Origin: Sneathiellales bacterium
Lineage (GTDB): Bacteria > Pseudomonadota > Alphaproteobacteria > JANQFL01
Direction of reading: 5' to 3'
Length of the DNA stretch: 36,223 nucleotides
Assembly: GCA_028277845.1 (NCBI GenBank)
Contig: JANQFL010000041.1
Coordinates: 1-36,223, forward strand
Shown here: piece after piece, positions 13,934 to 26,411 of the stretch
Position numbering within the stretch: the first letter of the stretch is position 1
Layout of the letters: each line of letters starts with the position of its first letter
Position numbers and translations under genes: made by a program
Notes under the pieces: generated by a model
Told to the model about the DNA's origin: nothing
Database searches by the model: none
What the model saw: the letters and a program-made list of their open reading frames with translations, nothing else

Positions 13934-16900
13934 TCAATGGGCGATCATACCGCGTATCTGGCCGTTGGCCAGCGCCAGCTTGGCGACGTCCACGTTACCG
14001 GATGCCCGGAACTCGCTGATCAACCGGTTGATCTTGTCGACCGAACTACCATTGTTTTGTGACCAACTGTCGATGGCGTCCGCGCCGGCCTGGCCGTTCG
14101 ATGTTTCCAGCACCGCGTTGGTCAAAGCGCGCTGCTGGCCGAACAGATCGTCGACCATGGCCCCCACCGCCTGGCGCTCCCAGTTGTTTTCCGGAACGAT
14201 GTGTTCGGCGGATGCCCGCAGCCAGTTGAGTCCGAGCTTGTCGCCAACGCCGAAATAGACCCGGCCGACATCTTCGACCGGACGTTTTCCGCCGACTGCG
14301 GCGGCCACGATGTCGAGCGCCGATTCCAGTGCTTCCAGTCCGGCGATGCGTTTGGCAATGTCTTCGGGCACGTCCTGTTCGCTGTACAGCGCATACCGTC
14401 CGGCGAAGCTTTCCGCTTCCAGGTCGCTGAGAACGGTTTCCAGATTGGTCTCCAGCGTTTCGATACCGCCCGCGTAGGCGTCGATCGTCTTCTGAATGTC
14501 CAGCGGTTGCGGCACATTGCGCAGGAACCAGAGCGTCGCCCGCCTGATCAGGTCGTTGCTGGCTGAAATCATCTCGATCTGCAAATCTGAATCGACCTTG
14601 TTGTCCAGGTCCTCGATGGCGGTCCACAGCCGGCGCAAACGGAACACTTCGCGCGCCACCACGTAGGAACGGGTGATATCGGCGACCGACGCTTCGGACT
14701 TGTCGGAGATTTCGTGAATGAACGTCAGACCGGCGCGGTTGACCAGACTGTTGGCGACGATCGTGGCAATGATCTCGCGCCGCAAGCGATGGCCGTGAAT
14801 GACGTCCGTGAACCGGCGGCGCAGCGGACGTGGGAAGTACTTGACCAGGTCGGCCGCCAGGTAGGCATCATCGGGCAGGTCGGATACCAGCAGGTCGGCG
14901 TACAGCCCGTTCTTGGCGTAGGCCATCAGCACCGACAGTTCCGGACGGCTCAGCCCCTGGCCCTTGCCCAGGCGTTCGGCGATGGCGTCGTCGTCGGGCA
15001 GAAATTCGATGACCCGGTCGAGACGGCCGGCCCGTTCAACCGCCCGCATGAAGGCGATCTGCGTTTCCACGTGGGTTTCGGTGCGCCGTTCGGCGATGGT
15101 CAACGCCTGGGTCTGCAGGTAGTTGTCGACCAGCACCAGGTCGGCCACTTCGTCGGTCATGTCGGCCAGCAGTTTGTCGCGTTGCTTGCCGGTCATTTCG
15201 CCGTCGTCGACGATGGCGCCCAACAGGATCTTGATATTGACCTCGTGATCCGAACAATCGACGCCGGCTGAGTTGTCGACGGCGTCGGCATTGACCCGCC
15301 CCCCCTTCAGACCGAATTCGATGCGGGCACGTTGTGTCAGGCCCAGGTTGGCGCCTTCGCCGACCACCAGGCACTTCAGATCCTTGGCGTCGATGCGTAG
15401 CGAATCGTTGGCTCGGTCGCCGACGTCGGCGTTTTTCTCGTCGCTATGCTTGACGTAGGTGCCGATGCCGCCGAACCACAACAGGTCGACCTTGACCTTG
15501 AGAATGGCCTTGATCAGTTCGGCGGGCGTCAGGCTGCTTTCCGAGATGTTCAGCAGTTTCTTGATTTCCGGCGTGACCTTGATCGCCTTGACGGCACGGG
15601 AGAACACACCGCCGCCCTTGGAGATCAGTTTCTTGTCATAGTCGTCCCATGACGACCGGGGCAGGGCGAACATGCGCTCGCGTTCGCTGAAACTTTTCTC
15701 CGGGTCGGGATCGGGATCGATGAACACATGGCGGTGATCGAATGCGGCGATCAGCTTGGTGTGCCGGCTTTGCAGCATGCCGTTGCCGAACACGTCACCC
15801 GACATGTCGCCGACACCGATGGCGGTAAATTCGGATGTCTGGATGTCGCGGTCCATTTCGCGGAAATGGCGCTTGACCGATTCCCAGGCGCCGCGCGCGG
15901 TAATACCCATCTTCTTGTGGTCATAGCCGGCCGACCCGCCCGAGGCAAAGGCATCGCCGAGCCAGAAGCCGTATTCCAGCGACAAGGCGTTGGCGATGTC
16001 GGAAAAGGTCGCCGTGCCCTTGTCGGCGGCGACCACCAGGTATGGGTCGTCGTCATCGCGCCGAACCACGTCATGGGGCGGCGCCACGTCGCCGGCGACC
16101 AGGTTGTCGGTGACGTCCAGCATGCCGCGGATCAGGGTCTGGTAGCACTGCACCACTTCGTCCATGACGGCATCCCGGTCGCCGTCGACGGGCAGCCTTT
16201 TGGCGACGAATCCACCCTTGGCCCCGACCGGCACGATGACCGAATTCTTGACCATCTGGGCCTTCATCAGGCCGAGCACCTCGGTGCGGAAATCCTCGCG
16301 CCGGTCCGACCAGCGGATGCCGCCGCGCGCCACTTCCCCGCCACGCAGGTGCACGCCTTCGACCCGTGGCGAATAGACCCAGATTTCCTTGTAGGGCCGG
16401 GGCAGGGGAAGCTCGTGGATTCTCTGGCTGTCCAGCTTGAAAGAGACGTAAGGCTTCGGATCGCCGTCGGCGGCCGGTTGGAAGAAGTTGGTGCGTAGGG
16501 TCGATTGCACCAGGTTGATGAAGCGCCGCAGGATGCGGTCCTCGTCCAGGCTGGTCACGTCGTCGAGCGACGCCTTCAGGCTTTCCACGGTGACGTCGAT
16601 CCGGGCGTCGCGCTTGCTGCCGCCGGACGGATCGAAGCACAGCTTGAACAGCACCACGATCTGATGGGCGATGTCGGGATTGCAGGCCAGGGTGTCTTCC
16701 ATATAGTCCTGGCTGAAGGTAATGCCGGTCTGCCGCAGGTATTTGCAGTAGGCCCGCAGGATGACCACTTCGCGCCAGTCCAGACCGGCGCGCAGCACAA
16801 GCTGGTTGAAGCCGTCGTCCTCCATGCCGCCGAACCAGACCTTCTCGAAGGCTTCCTCGAATTTCGGTTTGACGGCGACCAGGTCGAGCTCGCCGCCGTT

Positions 16901-18766
16901 CGGGTCGTGCAGCAGGAAATCGTGAATCCAGTATTCCTTGCCCGAGGTTTCGCCGATCGAGAACGGGCTTTCCTCGATCACCTTCAGGCCCATGTGTTCG
17001 AGCATGGGCAGGCAATCGGACAAAGGCACCGGGTCGCCCGGGTGATAGATCTTGAAACGGATGGCGTGGTTGGGATCCTCGATCCGGCGATAGAGGTTCA
17101 GGCCGACCGTTTCCGGACCATCCAGGGCATCGATTTTCTCGATGTCATGCAGCGCGTTGTGCGCGGAGAACACTTCCTTGTACGCGGTGGGGAAGCCTTC
17201 GCTGAAGCGGTGCCAGACCCGGTTGCCGCCTTCCTCGCCCCAGCGTTCGATCAAGGCGTCATAAAGATTGTCGCTCCACGACCGGGCGGCGTCGATGAGG
17301 CGCAGTTCGAGTTGGTCGACGTCCGGCTCCTGTACATCGCCCGGATTGGTGCCGACGATGAAATGCAGCCGGGCCAGGGGCGAGTCGCCGATCAGGGTGT
17401 AGAACGCCGAATCCCGGCCGTTATAGCCCTCGCGCAGGATACGTTGAAAACGCTTGCGCAGGTCGGTGTTGTAGCGCTCGCGCGGCACGTAGACCAAACA
17501 GGAGACGAAGCGCTCGAATTCGTCGCGCCGGGCGAACAGCCGGATGCGTGGCCGCTCCTGCAATTCCAAAATGCCCATCGAGGATTCGGTCAGCTCCTCG
17601 ACCGACACCTGGAACAGCTCGTCGCGCGGATACTGTTCGAGAATATTGAGCAGCGCCTTGCCGTCGTGGCTGGTCAGGCCGATGTCGGCCCTTTCGATGA
17701 CCTGCTGCACCTTACGGCGCAGGAAGGGGATGTCGCGGGGATTGCGGTTGTAGGCGGCGGACGTGAACAGGCCGATGAAGCGGCGCTCGCCCACCACCTT
17801 GCCCTTGGCGTTGAACGTCTTGACGCCGACATAGTCCAGATACACCGGCCGGTGCACCGTCGACTTGACGTTGGCCTTGGTGACGATCAGCGCCTCGGAC
17901 CGGCCGAGAAACTGGCGCACTTCCGGCGACATGGTCACGGGGCCGTGGCGCCCGCCCATGACGCGGGTCTTGTCGTCCTGCAGGATGCCGAGGCCGGAGC
18001 CGTCGACGATCTTCAGTTCCTGCTGGCCCTTGGTGGCTTCGTAGTCGTATTCGCGGTAGCCGAGGAAGGTGAAGTGGTTGTCGCCCATCCACTTCAGCAA
18101 GGCGATGGTTTCGTCGACCTCTTCCTTGTCCAGCGGCAGTTTGCCCTTGGAGATGGCTTTGACGGTGTCGTCGAGCTTGCCCATCATCTTGGGCCAGTCG
18201 TCGACCGCCGCGCGCACGTCGGACAGCACCTTCTCCAGCGATTCCTGGATACCCGACAGGACCTGCGGGTCGGACTGTTCGTTGATCTCGATGTGCATGA
18301 AGGATTCGCACGGGGTGTCGCCGCCGTTGACGTCGGCGATCAATGCCGTGCGGTTGCCTTTGCCGTCGCGCCGGACACCCAGCAGCGGGTGCACGATGAT
18401 GTGCACGGTCAGCGCCAGTTCGCTCAACGCCGCGGTCACCGAATCGACCAGGAACGGCATGTCGTCGTTGACCACTTCGACGACCGTGTGGGACGAGTTC
18501 CAGCCGTGTTCCTCCAGGTTCGGGTTGTAGACCCGGATCTTCGGCGTGCCCGGGTCGCGGTGCTCGGCGTATTTCCACAAGGACAGCGCCGCGCCGTAGA
18601 GGTTCTCGACGGAATAGCTCAGGACGTCTTCCGGCGCGACCCGGTCGTAATACCGGGTGACGAATGCCTCGACATCCTTGGCCGCGTCTTTGTTCAGCCG
18701 CTTCTTCAGGTGGCTGACGACTTTGGCGATGTGATCCTGTTTCTGTTCCTGTGCTTTAGAAGGCAT
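13934..18766 (-). CDS. gdhB: NAD-dependent glutamate dehydrogenase, large (about 180 kDa) class
   Basis: This 1610-residue protein is the full length of the large bacterial NAD-GDH, which oxidatively deaminates glutamate to 2-oxoglutarate and ammonia. It has ACT-like N-terminal regions (from about residue 80, VVEVVNDDMPFLVDSVTAAL), then the catalytic GDH core. The core shows RGGIRWSDRREDFRTEVLGL, VKNSVIVPVGAKGGFVAKR (about 845-860), and the dinucleotide-domain stretches VVGEGANLGLTQRARIEF and GGRVNADAVDNSAGVDCSDH (about 1133-1173). A helical C-terminal part follows. The start ATG 18766 is preceded by GGGAGGG. The large ORFs on the opposite strand are GC-skew shadows. The gene symbol follows Pseudomonas usage. 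Confidence 0.95.
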   Translation of the reverse strand: MPSKAQEQKQDHIAKVVSHLKKRLNKDAAKDVEAFVTRYYDRVAPEDVLSYSVENLYGAALSLWKYAEHRDPGTPKIRVYNPNLEEHGWNSSHTVVEVVNDDMPFLVDSVTAALSELALTVHIIVHPLLGVRRDGKGNRTALIADVNGGDTPCESFMHIEINEQSDPQVLSGIQESLEKVLSDVRAAVDDWPKMMGKLDDTVKAISKGKLPLDKEEVDETIALLKWMGDNHFTFLGYREYDYEATKGQQELKIVDGSGLGILQDDKTRVMGGRHGPVTMSPEVRQFLGRSEALIVTKANVKSTVHRPVYLDYVGVKTFNAKGKVVGERRFIGLFTSAAYNRNPRDIPFLRRKVQQVIERADIGLTSHDGKALLNILEQYPRDELFQVSVEELTESSMGILELQERPRIRLFARRDEFERFVSCLVYVPRERYNTDLRKRFQRILREGYNGRDSAFYTLIGDSPLARLHFIVGTNPGDVQEPDVDQLELRLIDAARSWSDNLYDALIERWGEEGGNRVWHRFSEGFPTAYKEVFSAHNALHDIEKIDALDGPETVGLNLYRRIEDPNHAIRFKIYHPGDPVPLSDCLPMLEHMGLKVIEESPFSIGETSGKEYWIHDFLLHDPNGGELDLVAVKPKFEEAFEKVWFGGMEDDGFNQLVLRAGLDWREVVILRAYCKYLRQTGITFSQDYMEDTLACNPDIAHQIVVLFKLCFDPSGGSKRDARIDVTVESLKASLDDVTSLDEDRILRRFINLVQSTLRTNFFQPAADGDPKPYVSFKLDSQRIHELPLPRPYKEIWVYSPRVEGVHLRGGEVARGGIRWSDRREDFRTEVLGLMKAQMVKNSVIVPVGAKGGFVAKRLPVDGDRDAVMDEVVQCYQTLIRGMLDVTDNLVAGDVAPPHDVVRRDDDDPYLVVAADKGTATFSDIANALSLEYGFWLGDAFASGGSAGYDHKKMGITARGAWESVKRHFREMDRDIQTSEFTAIGVGDMSGDVFGNGMLQSRHTKLIAAFDHRHVFIDPDPDPEKSFSERERMFALPRSSWDDYDKKLISKGGGVFSRAVKAIKVTPEIKKLLNISESSLTPAELIKAILKVKVDLLWFGGIGTYVKHSDEKNADVGDRANDSLRIDAKDLKCLVVGEGANLGLTQRARIEFGLKGGRVNADAVDNSAGVDCSDHEVNIKILLGAIVDDGEMTGKQRDKLLADMTDEVADLVLVDNYLQTQALTIAERRTETHVETQIAFMRAVERAGRLDRVIEFLPDDDAIAERLGKGQGLSRPELSVLMAYAKNGLYADLLVSDLPDDAYLAADLVKYFPRPLRRRFTDVIHGHRLRREIIATIVANSLVNRAGLTFIHEISDKSEASVADITRSYVVAREVFRLRRLWTAIEDLDNKVDSDLQIEMISASNDLIRRATLWFLRNVPQPLDIQKTIDAYAGGIETLETNLETVLSDLEAESFAGRYALYSEQDVPEDIAKRIAGLEALESALDIVAAAVGGKRPVEDVGRVYFGVGDKLGLNWLRASAEHIVPENNWERQAVGAMVDDLFGQQRALTNAVLETSNGQAGADAIDSWSQNNGSSVDKINRLISEFRASGNVDVAKLALANGQIRGMIAH

Positions 18767-19921: not shown

Positions 19922-20314
19922 TTATCCGATCTGGCCGTGCAGCTTCCGGTCCATCGTCCGGAAATGTTCGGAGAACCAGTGATCCAGATGCTTGGCCAGT
20001 TCCTGTTCGTAACTGGCGTAACGGCCTTCGGCGTGATTGTCCATGATTTCCCGGATGTCGTCGAGCAGATGTTCGTGATCTTCCTTGTGCGGCCAGTAGT
20101 CTTCGTAGCCGCTGTCCGACATCTTCTTTTCCTCGAGCGCGAAGTGGGACGAAATCGCGTCGTGGATCTCGCCGAGAATGGCCGCGACGTCGTCCTCGGA
20201 CCCGGTGCCGATTTTGCCGTACAGGCGATTGATCAGGCCGACCAGCTCCTGGTGCTCATGATCGACCGACGCGACGCCGGTCTTGTAGTCGTCTTTCCAT
20301 TCGATCAGGGTCAT
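19922..20314 (-). CDS. Bacteriohemerythrin
   Basis: This 130-residue, four-helix-bundle protein has a full set of candidate di-iron ligands: H21 (DHEHQELV), H57 and E61 (HFALEE), H76 and H80 (HKEDHEHLL), and H117 and D122 (HFRTMD). Bacteriohemerythrins bind O2 reversibly and may store or deliver oxygen, or sense it or iron. There is no fused signalling domain. ATG 20314 was preferred over an upstream start at 20332, because the family typically starts immediately before the IEWKDDYKTGV-type sequence. Confidence 0.92.
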   Translation of the reverse strand: MTLIEWKDDYKTGVASVDHEHQELVGLINRLYGKIGTGSEDDVAAILGEIHDAISSHFALEEKKMSDSGYEDYWPHKEDHEHLLDDIREIMDNHAEGRYASYEQELAKHLDHWFSEHFRTMDRKLHGQIG

Positions 20315-20437
20315 GGTCCCGCGCGCCTTCAAAAGCCTCGAAATCCTGGGAAAACAGCCATATTTGGCGTTTCCGCCATGTTCGTGTCGAGCGCGCGGAG
20401 TGTGGGGGATTCCGCCTGATCACGCAATCCCGGAATG

Positions 20438-21096: not shown

Positions 21097-22266
21097 ATGA
21101 CTCAGCCCATCCATTCCGGTCGCCGGGGACAGTCTGCGGACAAGGCTCTCGCCTTGATCGCCCGGCTTGGCCGTGACCTGTGCACCTGGGCCGACCCGGA
21201 GCCTTGCCTGCGCGCCGTGCTGCCGGCCATTTCCTTGATGGCGGGCGTCGACGACATTGTTCTGAACCTGGGGTCGGAAGACCTTCATTCCGGGCGGAAG
21301 GACACCGACCAGGTCATCGCCTTTCCGCTCAGCGTCTCCCAACATGAAATCGGGTCCCTCGATGTGGTTCTCGCCGAAGGGCAGTACCTGACCAGCGTGC
21401 AGAGCGACATCGTCCGGACGGTTGCCGACATCGCCGCGCTGGCGGTGGCCAATGTGGGCCTGGTCGACCGGCTGGTCGAACAGGAAAGCATGCGCCGGGA
21501 ACTGGAACTGGCGGCCGAGATTCAGCGCGACCTGCTGCCGCAGTCGGAACCGGGCGTCCTGCCGGTGTTCGGTGTCAACCGTCCCGCCCGGACCGTGTCC
21601 GGAGATTTCTTCGACTATTTCACCTTGCGGGACGGCACCATCCGCTTCGCCCTCGGCGACGTCTCGGGCAAGGGCATCAACGCGGCGTTGCTCATGGCCA
21701 AGACGGCCAGCCTGTTCCGTTGCCTGGGCAAGACCCATAAGGACCCGGTGTCGCTCATGCGGGCCATCAACCGCGAAATTCATGAAACCATGTCCCGTGG
21801 CATGTTCGTCACCATGGTGGCCGGATCATACGATCCGTCGTCCGGGGAAGTGCGCTTCGCCAATGCCGGGCACGAGCCGCCATTGTTCCGGCGCCGGGAC
21901 CGCAGCTACGAAAGCTTTCCCGCGTTCACGCCGCCCCTGGGCATCCTGCCGGAAATCGACTTCGTGCAGACCGTCGTCAATCTGCACAACGGAGAGTTCT
22001 ATGTGTTTTCCGACGGCCTGACCGAATTCATCTACGACGGCGATGAAATGCTCGGTTCGGACGGTCTGATACACCTGATCGAAGCGATGGCCGATCTGCC
22101 GTTGGGCGAGCGCGTACACGGCTTGCTGAACGAACTCGACGCCGCCGGATGGGAGGCGCGCGACGACCTCACCATGCTGGTCATCGACGATTCCTGGACG
22201 GCGCCGGCCGATACCGCCGAGACCGCCGAAGCGGAACCGCAATCGGTGGGGTCCGCCGATGCGTGA
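21097..22266 (+). CDS. PP2C/SpoIIE-type protein serine phosphatase with GAF-like domain (RsbU-like)
   Basis: This 389-residue protein has a GAF-like sensory domain (about 15-125), a linking helix with the family motif LELAAEIQRDLLPQ (136-149), and a PP2C (SpoIIE/RsbU) domain (155-370). Metal-binding residues are visible in SGDFFDYF (168-175), ALGDVSGKGINAALLM (185-200), FSDGLTEF (304-311, D306) and RDDLTML (355-361). Such phosphatases dephosphorylate a STAS-domain anti-anti-sigma protein. The gene overlaps the following kinase gene by 8 nt. The GAF domain presumably senses the signal; its ligand is unknown. No membrane segment is present. Confidence 0.9.
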   Translation: MTQPIHSGRRGQSADKALALIARLGRDLCTWADPEPCLRAVLPAISLMAGVDDIVLNLGSEDLHSGRKDTDQVIAFPLSVSQHEIGSLDVVLAEGQYLTSVQSDIVRTVADIAALAVANVGLVDRLVEQESMRRELELAAEIQRDLLPQSEPGVLPVFGVNRPARTVSGDFFDYFTLRDGTIRFALGDVSGKGINAALLMAKTASLFRCLGKTHKDPVSLMRAINREIHETMSRGMFVTMVAGSYDPSSGEVRFANAGHEPPLFRRRDRSYESFPAFTPPLGILPEIDFVQTVVNLHNGEFYVFSDGLTEFIYDGDEMLGSDGLIHLIEAMADLPLGERVHGLLNELDAAGWEARDDLTMLVIDDSWTAPADTAETAEAEPQSVGSADA

Positions 22267-22720
22267 CGGTTCGACGACGTTGGCCGGCGGCGAATTACTG
22301 GTCCGCCTGAACCTGCCGGCCCGGGCCGACCGCCTCAAGCTCGTGCGCCGCTGCACCGAATCGGCGGCCCTGATGTGCGGCTTGGCGGGACATGACGCCA
22401 AGGACGTGCTGCTGGCCGTCGACGAAGCCTGCCAGAACGTCATCCGCCATGCCTACGGCGAGGAGGGCGGCGGCGAAATCATTCTGGAATTGCGCCGGAC
22501 CGCCGAGGCGCTGGGCATCTACGTGCGTGACTACGGCCCGACGACCGATCCCGCCGACGTCCGGCCGCGCGACCTGGACGATGTCCGTCCCGGCGGCCTC
22601 GGCACCCACTTCATTCGCGAGGTCATGGACCGGGTGACGTTCCTCACCCCGCCCGACGGCCGCGGCAATCTGTTGGAACTGATCAAGTACCTGAAACCGG
22701 AAGGACCCACCCATGCCTGA
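22259..22720 (+). CDS. RsbW/SpoIIAB-type serine kinase (HATPase_c_2)
   Basis: This 153-residue GHKL ATPase-fold protein has the N-box in VDEACQNVIRHAY (54-66; E57, N60), the G1 box RDYGPTTDP (90-98) and the G2 box GGLGTHFIREVMD (112-124). In partner-switching systems this protein phosphorylates a STAS antagonist and sequesters a target, classically a sigma factor. No sigma factor is encoded nearby. The ATG overlaps the phosphatase stop by 8 nt and has GGTGGGG 7 nt ahead; its own stop overlaps the STAS start by 8 nt. Confidence 0.92.
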   Translation: MRDGSTTLAGGELLVRLNLPARADRLKLVRRCTESAALMCGLAGHDAKDVLLAVDEACQNVIRHAYGEEGGGEIILELRRTAEALGIYVRDYGPTTDPADVRPRDLDDVRPGGLGTHFIREVMDRVTFLTPPDGRGNLLELIKYLKPEGPTHA

Positions 22721-23063
22721 TCCCTTGTCCGGAACCGCGTCCGTCGACGACCGCGACGGCGCCTGCATCGTCGCCCTGCACGGTGACGTCGACCTGGAAA
22801 AGGCGCCGTCGCTGCGCAAATTGTTGCTCGACTGCGTCGCCCGCGGCAAGGCCGTGCTGATCGACATGTCGGCCGTCGCCTATATCGACAGTTCGGGCAT
22901 CGCCAGTCTGATCGAAGCCCTGCAGACGTCCATGAGCAAGGGCACCGGCTTCGGCCTGGTGTCGGTCAGCGACCAGGCCATGCGGGTGCTGCAATTGGCG
23001 CGCCTCGACAAGGTGTTCGCCATCCACCCCGACAGCGACAGCGCCATGGCGGCGCTGCAGTAG
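22713..23063 (+). CDS. STAS-domain antagonist protein (SpoIIAA/RsbV-like, in the position of MlaB)
   Basis: This 116-residue STAS domain reads VALHGDVDLEKAPSLRKLL and then AYIDSSGIASLIEAL. S60 in DSSG aligns with the phosphorylated Ser58 of B. subtilis SpoIIAA. It lies between the kinase (8-nt overlap) and an MCE permease gene that starts 11 nt downstream. E. coli mla operons place the STAS protein MlaB with the ABC transporter, where it binds the ATPase MlaF. A dual role, as substrate of the kinase/phosphatase pair and as a transporter subunit, is inferred from this position. Confidence 0.9.
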   Translation: MPDPLSGTASVDDRDGACIVALHGDVDLEKAPSLRKLLLDCVARGKAVLIDMSAVAYIDSSGIASLIEALQTSMSKGTGFGLVSVSDQAMRVLQLARLDKVFAIHPDSDSAMAALQ

Positions 23064-23074
23064 GAGACCGTCCG

Positions 23075-23863
23075 TTGCTGCAATTCGCGGAAGCCCTCGG
23101 CCGGTATTCGGCCCGCGCCTTCGACGGTGTCGGTTACGCCGCGTCGCTGCTGGGCGAATCCGTGTATTGGACATTCGACGGCGCGCGCCGGGGGCAGCCC
23201 GTGCGGTTCGGCGCCGTGGTGTTGCAGATGATGCAGGTCGGTATCCAGGCGGTGCCGATCGTCACCCTGCTGTCGCTTGCTATCGGCGGCATGCTGGCCA
23301 TTCAGAGCCTCTATTCCCTCGGCCTGTTCGGCGCCGAGTCCTACGCTTATGTCGGCATCGCCTTTTCCGTCACCCGCGAGTTTGCGCCGCTGATCACCGG
23401 TATCCTGGTGGCCGGTCGCTCCGGTTCGGCCCTGGCGGCGCGTCTGAGCACCATGACCATCAACCAGGAAGTGGACGCCCTCAACGTCATGGGCATCAAC
23501 CCGGTGCGTTACCTGGTGGCGCCCGCCTTGCTGGCCATGGTCGTCATGGTGCCGGCGTTGACGATCTGGTCCGGCGCCGTGTCCATGCTGGCCGCCGGGC
23601 TTTATGTGTCGGTTTCCCTCGACACCACGCTTGTCGCCTTTGCCACCGACGCCGCCGGTGTGCTGGCGCCGGCCGACTTGCTGCACGGCTTCGGCAAGAG
23701 CGTGCTGTTCGCTGCCCTCATCGCCTTGATCGGCGTGGTCAACGGGTCCCAGGTCAAGGGCGGCGCCGAGGGTGTCGGCAAGGTGACGACCCGCGCCGTC
23801 GTGCAAAGCATCTCCGCCATCGTCATCGCCGACATGGTGTTCGCCTATTTCGCGACGGTGTAA
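23075..23863 (+). CDS. mlaE: MCE-system ABC transporter permease (MlaE family)
   Basis: This 262-residue inner-membrane protein has an N-terminal amphipathic stretch and about five to six membrane helices. The family signature is NQEVDALNVMGINPVRYLV (130-148), with the conserved acidic E132, plus REFAPLITGILVAGRSGSAL upstream. MlaE permeases, with MlaF and MlaD, move phospholipids between inner and outer membranes. The start is TTG 23075, with AGGAG 8 nt upstream (23062-23066) directly after the STAS stop. The ATPase gene follows after 3 nt. Confidence 0.93.
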   Translation: MLQFAEALGRYSARAFDGVGYAASLLGESVYWTFDGARRGQPVRFGAVVLQMMQVGIQAVPIVTLLSLAIGGMLAIQSLYSLGLFGAESYAYVGIAFSVTREFAPLITGILVAGRSGSALAARLSTMTINQEVDALNVMGINPVRYLVAPALLAMVVMVPALTIWSGAVSMLAAGLYVSVSLDTTLVAFATDAAGVLAPADLLHGFGKSVLFAALIALIGVVNGSQVKGGAEGVGKVTTRAVVQSISAIVIADMVFAYFATV

Positions 23864-23866
23864 GCC

Positions 23867-24703
23867 ATGTCCCTGACCGCATCCCACATAGACCAGACCC
23901 CGGCGGCGACGGCACGAGATTGCCCGATCGCCGTCAGCGGCCTGAACACCCACTTCGGCGACACGCAAATCCTGTTCGACGTGGATCTCGACATCGAACG
24001 GGGCGAGATCATGGTCATCATGGGCGGCAGCGGTTCGGGCAAGAGCACGTTGCTGCGTCATCTGGTCGGTCTCGAACGGCCGACCGGCGGCAGCATCCGG
24101 GTGCTCGGCGACGATCTGGCGACCATCGGATCGAACGACCTGATGGCGATCCGCCGCCGGCTCGGTGTCGCCTTTCAGGGCGGCGCGTTGTTCAGCTCCA
24201 TGTCGGTGGTGGAAAACGTCAAGCTGCCGCTCCGCGAACACACCAAGCTGGACGAGCGCACCATGGACATCATGGCGCGGCTCAAGCTCGAGGTGGTCAA
24301 CCTGGCCGGCGCCGCCGACCTCATGCCGTCGCAACTGTCGGGCGGCATGCTCAAGCGCGCCGCGGTGGCGCGGGCCATCGTCATGGATCCGCAGCTCCTG
24401 TTCTTCGACGAACCGTCGGCGGGGCTCGACCCGGTGGTGTCGTCGGCGCTCGATGACCTGATCCTGCGCCTGCGCGACGCCATGGACATGACCATCGTCG
24501 TTGTGACCCATGAACTCGACAGCGCCTTCAAGATCGCCGATCGGATTTGCGTGCTCGACCGCGGGCACGTCCTGGCCGTCGACACCGTCGACGCCATCCG
24601 CGCCAGCGGCAACCAGCGCATTCAGAATTTGTTGAACCGGGAAGCCGAAGATGAAGACCTGGACGCCGAAGCCTATCTGGCCCGGCTGACCGGCACGGCA
24701 TAA
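23867..24703 (+). CDS. mlaF: MCE-system ABC transporter ATPase (MlaF family)
   Basis: This 278-residue nucleotide-binding protein has Walker A GGSGSGKST (53-61), Q-loop Q104 (AFQGGALFSSMSV, the MlaF-type Q-loop context), signature LSGGM (157-161), Walker B LLFFDEPSAGLDP (177-189) and H-loop H215 (VTHEL). GGALF after the Q-loop and LSGGMLKRAAVARA are characteristic of MlaF-like rather than generic importer ATPases. It pairs with the preceding permease. In E. coli this subunit is the one contacted by the STAS protein MlaB. Confidence 0.94.
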   Translation: MSLTASHIDQTPAATARDCPIAVSGLNTHFGDTQILFDVDLDIERGEIMVIMGGSGSGKSTLLRHLVGLERPTGGSIRVLGDDLATIGSNDLMAIRRRLGVAFQGGALFSSMSVVENVKLPLREHTKLDERTMDIMARLKLEVVNLAGAADLMPSQLSGGMLKRAAVARAIVMDPQLLFFDEPSAGLDPVVSSALDDLILRLRDAMDMTIVVVTHELDSAFKIADRICVLDRGHVLAVDTVDAIRASGNQRIQNLLNREAEDEDLDAEAYLARLTGTA

Positions 24704-24765
24704 GGACCGAACGATGTTGAACCATTCAATCCCCGCACGGGACACGGCAAGCTTGGGACACGGCC

Positions 24766-25800
24766 ATGCGTAATTCTCGATGGAACTACATCGCCGTGGG
24801 GCTGTTCGTCATGGCCATGATCGGCGCCGGGCTGGCCGGGCTGGTGGTGGTCGGGGCCCGCACGGGGTCGACCGATTCCTACTTTGTCGTGCTCGACAAC
24901 GTGGCCGATATCAAATTCGGCACCCAGGTCCGTTACGAGGGGTATCCGGTCGGCCAGGTCGAAAACATCACGCCGCGCGAACGGGACGGCGGCATGCGAT
25001 TTCACGTCTCGGTCAGCGTCGAACAGGGCTGGCGCATTCCGTCCGACAGCATCGCCCGGATCGGTTCCACCAGTTTCCTGGCCGCCAAGACCATCGATAT
25101 CGAACGGGGCAGCAGCCCCGAACCTCTCGAGCCGGGCACGCGGATCGCCGGGGCCGCGCCGATAGACGTCTTTTCCGCCATGTCGGAGGTTGCCGGCGAA
25201 ATCAGCGATCTCAGCCGCAACAGCGTGCAGCCGCTGCTGGCCAATATCGACGGTCTGGTCACCGGGCTCGGCGGCACGGTCGAACGGGACGTGACCCGGC
25301 TGCTGGCGACCCTCAACGAACTGGCGGGCACGCTGGGAGGGGACGCGCCGCGCATCACCGCGTCGTTGATGGATTTTTCCGCCCGCCTGAACGACAGCGC
25401 CGACACCGTGGCCACCATCCTGTCGCCGGAAAACGCCGCCGCCATCCAGCGCATCGTCGGCAATGTGGATCGCACCACCGATACCTTCGCCGCCCTCAGT
25501 ATCAGCCTGCAGCTTACGGCGGACCGGGTCGACGGCATCATCGACCAGGTCGATTCGCTGGTCGCCGACAACCGGATCGGCGTTGAGAAATCGCTAACGG
25601 ACCTGCGTTACACTTTGCGCACCGTGGCGCAGAACGTCGACACGATCGTGCACAACATGGAAGGCACCAGCCGCAACATGAACGAATTCAGCCGCCTGAT
25701 CCGCCAAAACCCCGGGCTGTTGCTCGGCGGGACGCCGCGCCAGGAAGTGTCGCCTGAAAACGTGCGCGTGCGGCCGCGCCGGGAAGCGGAAGCCCGCTGA
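24766..25800 (+). CDS. mlaD: MCE-domain lipid-transport protein (MlaD-like, extended)
   Basis: 344 residues. One N-terminal membrane anchor (about 8-30, YIAVGLFVMAMIGAGLAGLV) is followed by a single MCE domain (about 36-115: DSYFVVLDNVADIKFGTQV, YEGYPVGQVENI, and IARIGSTSFLAAKTIDIERG). A long helical periplasmic tail follows (about 130-320), rich in regularly spaced hydrophobics, then a basic end. E. coli MlaD is about 183 residues, so the tail is an extension of about 150 residues that could build a longer coiled-coil channel. The 62-nt gap from mlaF holds no gene. The stop overlaps the lipoprotein start by 1 nt. Confidence 0.92.
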   Translation: MRNSRWNYIAVGLFVMAMIGAGLAGLVVVGARTGSTDSYFVVLDNVADIKFGTQVRYEGYPVGQVENITPRERDGGMRFHVSVSVEQGWRIPSDSIARIGSTSFLAAKTIDIERGSSPEPLEPGTRIAGAAPIDVFSAMSEVAGEISDLSRNSVQPLLANIDGLVTGLGGTVERDVTRLLATLNELAGTLGGDAPRITASLMDFSARLNDSADTVATILSPENAAAIQRIVGNVDRTTDTFAALSISLQLTADRVDGIIDQVDSLVADNRIGVEKSLTDLRYTLRTVAQNVDTIVHNMEGTSRNMNEFSRLIRQNPGLLLGGTPRQEVSPENVRVRPRREAEAR

Positions 25801-26411
25801 TGCGGCACCGTTGGATATACGCCCTGGCCGCGTGCCTCGGGCTGGCCGGCTGTTTCGGTTCGGCGCCGCCGGTGCCGCGCGACCATTTCTACCGCATGGT
25901 CGCGCCGGCGCCCCCGACACCTGAGCAGGTCGAGGACCACATCGCCTACAAGGGCATCATGGCGGTCAACCAGTTGACGGCGGAAGGGCTGCTGCGCGAA
26001 CGGCCGGTGCTGTTCAGCGCATCGGGCCGGTCGCACGAAGTGCAGCAGCACGACTATCATTACTGGAGCGACCCGCCCACCCGCATGGTGCAGGAGGCGC
26101 TGATCTCCTATCTGCGCCGCAGCGGCCTGGCGGAAACCGTGATCAGCCAGGACCTGCGTATCCGGCCGGACTTCGAAGTGGTCGGCCGCATCAAGCGGCT
26201 CGAACGCCTGCTCGGCGGCGGCCCGCCCCGCGTGGTGGCCGAAATCGACCTGACCCTGCTCGACCGCACGGCCGACAAACTGCTGATCAGCCGCACCTAC
26301 ACGGTGGAACTGCCGAGCCGCGACGGCTCGGTCGATGCCTCCGTCATGGCCTTCAACAAGGCCCTGTCGCACATTCTCGAACGTTTCCTGATCGACGCCC
26401 GGCGGGTCTGA
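25800..26411 (+). CDS. ABC-type transport auxiliary lipoprotein (PF03886-like, PqiC/YmbA type)
   Basis: This 203-residue protein has a lipoprotein signal peptide with lipobox LAGC, lipidated cysteine C18. The mature domain shows the auxiliary-lipoprotein pattern (DHFYRMVAP near the start; YWSDPPTRMVQEALISYLR; a FEVVGRIKRLERL strand; TYTVELPS near the end). PqiC-type lipoproteins sit in the outer membrane and complete MCE bridges. The start overlaps the mlaD stop by 1 nt (TGATG), so translation is coupled. No MlaC or MlaA homologue is present in the window, which fits a lipoprotein-ended MCE system. Confidence 0.88.
   Translation: MRHRWIYALAACLGLAGCFGSAPPVPRDHFYRMVAPAPPTPEQVEDHIAYKGIMAVNQLTAEGLLRERPVLFSASGRSHEVQQHDYHYWSDPPTRMVQEALISYLRRSGLAETVISQDLRIRPDFEVVGRIKRLERLLGGGPPRVVAEIDLTLLDRTADKLLISRTYTVELPSRDGSVDASVMAFNKALSHILERFLIDARRV

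Follow-up and report, generated by a model that had tools for sequence, protein, structure and literature searches.

Regulation of lipid transport by Mla and other MCE systems is an acknowledged open question (PMC5016091, PMC7367683). In Escherichia coli, the MlaFEDB transporter is comprised of a permease (MlaE), an ATPase (MlaF), an MCE-domain protein, and a free STAS-domain protein, MlaB, which binds MlaF by its helical face and is required for MlaF assembly (PMC7367683, PMC5016091). Residue T52 of MlaB lies near the centre of the MlaF interface; a T52E substitution makes binding weaker, and T52A leaves assembly intact but eliminates ATPase activity (PMC7367683, PMC5016091). Both papers propose that this STAS subunit is regulated by phosphorylation, with no kinase known or named (PMC5016091, PMC7367683). 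Here we describe a block of seven genes on a 36,223-nucleotide stretch of DNA from a Sneathiellales bacterium (contig JANQFL010000041.1, hereafter the window), in which a serine phosphatase, a serine kinase, and a STAS protein directly precede the genes of an MCE transporter. The block probably encodes a self-contained, phosphorylation-gated MCE lipid transporter.

The transporter part of the block resembles the Mpc system of Brucella, where MlaE and MlaF are accompanied by a long MlaD-like protein and a PqiC-like lipoprotein, and MlaC is absent (PMC12436622). This is in contrast to the E. coli operon, which has MlaC and lacks a PqiC-like lipoprotein (PMC7367683). Mpc differs from the block in that MlaE itself carries the STAS domain at its N-terminus (PMC12436622), whereas the STAS protein of the block is separate.

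The remaining part of the block resembles the partner switches RsbU-RsbW-RsbV and SpoIIE-SpoIIAB-SpoIIAA, with which it shares a PP2C phosphatase, a HATPase_c_2 kinase, and a STAS protein bearing a D-S-S-G motif, as well as the same predicted folds. The output of these switches is a sigma factor, whereas the gene set linked to the switch in the block is an ABC lipid transporter. In bifunctional proteins of the Rv1364c/SypE type, the kinase and the PP2C phosphatase are combined in one chain; we know of no link between these proteins and a lipid transporter, nor of any partner switch described earlier that has an ABC lipid transporter as its output. Some known partner switches have an output other than a sigma factor (e.g., PMC3999984). 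Similar to the block, RbaVWY of Rhodobacter capsulatus is an alphaproteobacterial partner switch for which a sigma target was not identified, but it is reported to affect gene transfer agent production and viability, and the paper makes no mention of an ABC transporter (PMC3999984).

The seven open reading frames (ORFs) all lie on the forward strand and span positions 21097-26411 of the window. The first encodes a SpoIIE/RsbU-type PP2C serine phosphatase of 389 amino acids (21097-22266; Pfam SpoIIE PF07228, 2e-41), the second an RsbW-like HATPase_c_2 serine kinase of 153 amino acids (22259-22720; Pfam PF13581, 4e-26, with NCBIfam matches to RsbW families), and the third an RsbV-like STAS protein of 116 amino acids (22713-23063; Pfam STAS PF01740, 7e-20). 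They are followed by a 262-residue MlaE permease (23075-23863; Pfam MlaE PF02405, 7e-64), a 278-residue MlaF ATPase with Walker motifs (23867-24703; Pfam ABC_tran, 4e-31), a 344-residue MlaD-like MCE-domain protein with a long C-terminal region (24766-25800; Pfam MlaD, 7e-13; NCBIfam Mtu_fam_mce, 8e-30), and a 203-residue PqiC-like auxiliary lipoprotein (25800-26411; Pfam ABC_trans_aux PF03886, 1e-13), at whose N-terminus a lipobox-like LAGC can be read directly from the sequence. The operon thus has the long MlaD and the PqiC-like lipoprotein, and no MlaC. ORF coordinates and Pfam matches bear out the gene order given in a preliminary description of this DNA, including the 8-nt overlaps between phosphatase and kinase and between kinase and STAS, and the 11-nt gap between STAS and MlaE. 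The start codon of MlaE is TTG, with an AGGAG 9 nt upstream that overlaps the STAS stop codon. The MlaE domain begins at residue 49 according to Pfam, and no STAS domain is fused to it. A simple scan for sigma-70-like promoters gave none at the block, and terminator-like matches there were at chance level.

Recurrence of a PP2C phosphatase, a HATPase_c_2 kinase, and a STAS protein beside mlaE and mlaF had been set beforehand as the test of this association, and the arrangement is indeed found in many genomes rather than a single one. A kinase query against 58 genomes of the same class returned three close relatives; in all three loci, phosphatase, kinase, STAS, MlaE, MlaF, and MlaD occur in the same order, and two of them also have the lipoprotein. 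We then searched 84,980 species genomes with the kinase alignment only and kept the best 80 loci, two of which are unreadable (contigs L039 and L080 end too early). Downstream of the kinase, STAS and then MlaE are present in 76 of the 78 readable loci, usually with MlaF, MlaD, and the lipoprotein as well, all on the same strand. Median intergenic gaps within the block are between -8 and +9 nt. Viewed from the transporter, 12 out of 385 genomes of the class have an MlaE of the module type (more than 300 bits); one of these genes begins at a contig edge, and all of the remaining 11, for which upstream DNA is readable, have the kinase and STAS directly upstream.

The block is also present in a second phylum, that of a 'Deltaproteobacteria' metagenome-assembled genome. 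Here, eight of 189 genomes carry the kinase, one of them at a contig end; STAS and MlaE follow it in all seven readable cases, with MlaF also in view in six, and every module-type MlaE gene (6/6) is linked to the switch. In other classes of the window's own phylum, linkage was seen in two genomes (L148 and L149) but not in a third (L146, described below), and a fragmentary MlaE contig (L147) has no STAS within its 474 upstream bases. Because the block recurs in dozens of genomes, its linkage is not due to chance. The genes around it vary, the commonest neighbouring family outside the block being found in only 20 of 81 loci, and there is no sigma factor among the conserved flanking families of these 81 loci. 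Cultured carriers include Magnetovibrio blakemorei MV-1, Terasakiella pusilla DSM 6293, Terasakiella brassicae, Magnetospirillum moscoviense BB-1, and Dongia deserti. Three apparent taxonomic outliers were not used to judge the spread of the block: contigs labelled Stygiobacter (L102) and Methylocystaceae (L091), and possibly one labelled Halorhodospira (L082), are probably misbinned or mislabelled, since their MlaE proteins are so near to alphaproteobacterial copies (85% identical to Magnetospirillum, 94% to Terasakiella, and 71% to alphaproteobacterial copies, respectively).

The key residues of the switch are retained. In the phosphatase, the metal-site aspartates D170, D173, D188, D306, D356, and D357 are invariant across about 80 relatives, and its fold matches the phosphatase domains of RssB and Rv1364c (the RsbU-RsbW structure 3ke6 for the latter). 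In the kinase, the N-box residues E56 and N60 and the G-box residues R104, G112, and G115 are invariant in 82 relatives. In the STAS protein, D59-S60-S61 is invariant in all 81 kinase-linked proteins, the acceptor being serine in each. S60 (codon 22890-22892) is the first serine in Y-I-D-S-S-G, aligns with the phosphorylated serine of SpoIIAA, and is located at the start of helix 2 (residues 60-76) in an AlphaFold2 model of the protein (predicted local distance difference test score 89). With these residues of kinase, phosphatase, and STAS unchanged in about 80 relatives at 45-60% identity, the phosphatase-kinase-STAS switch looks functional, as judged from its sequences.

A second set of observations concerns the C-terminal tail of MlaF. 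In the window, this tail (LDAEAYLARLTG) contains Y270, R273, and L274, which are essentially invariant in about 75 relatives. The MlaF proteins of blocks with a free STAS end in L-D-x-x-x-Y-L-x-R-L-T-G, those of systems with a fused STAS in Y-F-H-G-P-R-x-R, and those of STAS-less systems in F-I-H-G-R-A-[ED]-G-P-I. The Y-x-x-R-L tail thus occurs only together with the free STAS type, and is absent from fused-STAS and STAS-less MlaF. The Y270-x-x-x-L274 spacing resembles Y261-x-x-x-L265 of E. coli MlaF, the tail on which MlaB docks, although this likeness was judged by eye because MAFFT left the tails unaligned. The E. coli system and the block are also alike in having a hydroxyl-bearing residue at the conserved position of the STAS protein, Thr52 in MlaB.

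In the tree of MlaE proteins, the kinase-linked proteins, including that of the window, form a clade that lies closest to the MlaE proteins carrying a fused STAS (some supports are modest). Thirty loci with such a fused STAS-MlaE were sampled. Unlike the block, they have threonine as the acceptor in 24 of 26 readable cases (serine in the other two), and no kinase or phosphatase was present within 1.5 kb in any of the 30. The fused proteins join in one chain the same two functions that are adjacent in the block, which we count in favour of a gated transporter. The genome of the window itself also carries a fused STAS-MlaE copy (L022), as well as a STAS-less MlaE/MlaF system (L021).

Together, MlaE, MlaF, the long MlaD, and the lipoprotein would form an Mpc-like lipid transporter between the inner and the outer membrane, in which the free STAS protein would stand in for MlaB, or for the MlaE-fused STAS domain of Mpc systems. 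In the mechanism that we infer, unphosphorylated STAS would dock on the helical subdomain of MlaF and on its C-terminal Y-x-x-R-L tail, and so stabilise or activate the ATPase. Phosphorylation of S60 by the kinase would uncouple STAS from MlaF and turn transport off, and in its other state the kinase may sequester STAS. The PP2C phosphatase would remove the phosphate and restore transport, driven by a signal at the GAF sensor where this domain is intact. More broadly, it is rather likely that this is a serine-phosphorylation partner switch with an ABC transporter as its output, present in at least two phyla, in which a GAF-PP2C-kinase sets the state of STAS and thereby gates lipid flux between membranes. 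Extending this to E. coli, Thr52 of MlaB would be the equivalent, in a lineage lacking the kinase, of a genuine phospho-acceptor site.

An alternative is that the kinase, rather than STAS, is the effector: it would bind and inhibit MlaF in the place usually taken by a sigma factor, and dephosphorylated STAS would relieve the inhibition. This would be a direct analogue of RsbW logic, in which the kinase sequesters and the STAS protein antagonises, and it would fit the fusion of kinase and phosphatase in many relatives. However, the known partner of MlaF is a STAS protein (PMC7367683), and the sister clade has STAS fused to MlaE. Given these points, the kinase has only a slim chance of being the effector; to our knowledge, there is also no precedent for a kinase acting on MlaF.

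Several observations weigh against a transporter gated through STAS. Firstly, the STAS protein is far nearer to RsbV/SpoIIAA (75 bits) than to MlaB (22 bits), and by the NCBIfam model mlaB_1 (25 bits against a cut-off of 90) it is not an MlaB. The best PDB match of its model is RsbV in the RsbV/RsbW complex; in VIA-align, structures of the RsbV/SpoIIAA type reach Z scores of 17-18, compared with 12.2 for Pseudomonas aeruginosa MlaB, and other MlaB entries were not among the 50 matches listed, which by itself excludes nothing. It also keeps the C-terminal strand and helix region that is missing from MlaB, a minimal STAS domain (PMC7367683) for which no kinase or phosphatase is known. The proposal that the STAS subunit of the transporter has a dedicated kinase and phosphatase stands as regards linkage, but the subunit is no MlaB by sequence, and a recruited RsbV-type protein would need to have acquired MlaF binding. 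Secondly, STAS-less MlaE/MlaF systems such as L021 exist, which shows that these transporters do not strictly require a STAS partner. Thirdly, covariation between STAS and MlaF was not detected, by mutual information with average product correction that had no power here; its scores for STAS with MlaD and with the lipoprotein were about equal to that for STAS with the kinase. Fourthly, two loci (L051, 4948-6008; L052, 6435-7801) have phosphatase, kinase, and STAS, but in place of MCE genes these are followed by a gene of the glutathione-S-transferase-like kind and one for a CcmA-like ATPase. A module-type MlaE was not found in either genome, both of which are draft assemblies; the transporter may have been lost or be missing from the assembly, or else the switch may act on something different. 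Conversely, one locus (L146, 1-3271) has the module transporter and the MlaF tail with no adjacent switch. Elsewhere in this genome, a kinase-STAS pair precedes a UbiD-like gene, and a phosphatase gene is paired with STAS at another site (L189, 5788-8065; L192, 902-1878). Since the L146 MlaE nests inside the kinase-linked clade, its linked switch appears to have been lost secondarily.

These observations bear on a second alternative, a classical partner switch with its output in trans, where the kinase would be an anti-sigma or sequestering factor, STAS its antagonist, and the transporter merely co-expressed under the same stress. The canonical RsbV/RsbW character of STAS and kinase in both sequence and fold would be expected here, as would the transporter-less L051 and L052. 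The genome of the window also has at least one other such set, a STAS/response-regulator-PP2C/kinase cluster linked to chemotaxis genes (L191, 4792-8547). On the other side, it is the transporter, and not a sigma factor or other regulator, that travels with the switch in nearly all readable loci and in the second phylum, and the MlaF tail of the block is seen together with free STAS proteins. In one genome (G212; L190, 2466-8429), the switch has been re-ordered to STAS-phosphatase-kinase and is convergent to a divergent MlaE-MlaF-MlaD-lipoprotein operon, and still adjoins it, which we also count in favour of gating. An output in trans is thus unlikely. The idea that the transporter takes the place of the sigma factor withstands the refutation envisaged for it at the outset, since the association extends beyond one genome, no sigma factor accompanies the block, and the MlaF tail is similar to the one that docks MlaB; it loses from L051 and L052.

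The composition of the switch varies. The phosphatase is fused to the kinase in 64 of the 80 loci, as in the Rv1364c/SypE type, with an N-terminal GAF domain where examined. The window is an exception, with separate genes for phosphatase and kinase and an eroded GAF domain: the phosphatase gave no Pfam match to GAF, and about 50 residues are deleted from the GAF core that is complete in its relatives where examined. Of the GAF-phosphatase named in the preliminary description, the phosphatase was thus confirmed and the GAF domain was not. The claim of signal sensing is weaker for the window copy because of this erosion. Two loci (L159, 5340-6040; L160, 1291-1994) have tandem STAS genes between kinase and MlaE, both with D-S-S-G. 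In two others (L154, 3083-5369; L155, 2480-4799), a kinase and a shorter STAS, with serine as acceptor in L154 and threonine in L155, stand beside divergent MlaE/MlaF with no linked phosphatase. The split and eroded state of the window genes, together with the loss of the linked switch in L146, might indicate that a phosphatase-kinase-STAS set once joined the transporter genes and has been carried along, inert or decaying, with no influence on transport. We consider this extremely improbable, given that catalytic and acceptor residues are invariant at such divergence and in two phyla, and that the block stays linked while its flanks change.

The pattern as a whole suggests that, in bacteria with the block, lipid transport is switched on and off through the phosphorylation of a single serine in a transporter subunit. 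If true, partner switching would extend from transcription factors to direct and fast control of a transporter. In the open-licence literature, a full-text search returned no paper combining MlaE with RsbW or MlaE with SpoIIE, and no account of an MCE transporter under such a switch; this agrees with the initial impression that no system of this kind had been described, although it is not proof of novelty. As kinase, phosphatase, STAS, and transporter form one conserved block that is also present in cultured strains, the question of regulation is directly testable.

Lone RsbW-like kinase genes were also seen in genomes of about 1.2 Mb belonging to the class (L156, 4520-4909; L157, 4701-5090), with neither STAS nor a transporter alongside. 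Upstream of the block in the window, a hemerythrin-like (HHE) gene is located on the opposite strand (19922-20332). Further upstream, a minus-strand ORF of 1610 amino acids (13934-18766) resembles, by eye, an NAD-dependent glutamate dehydrogenase.

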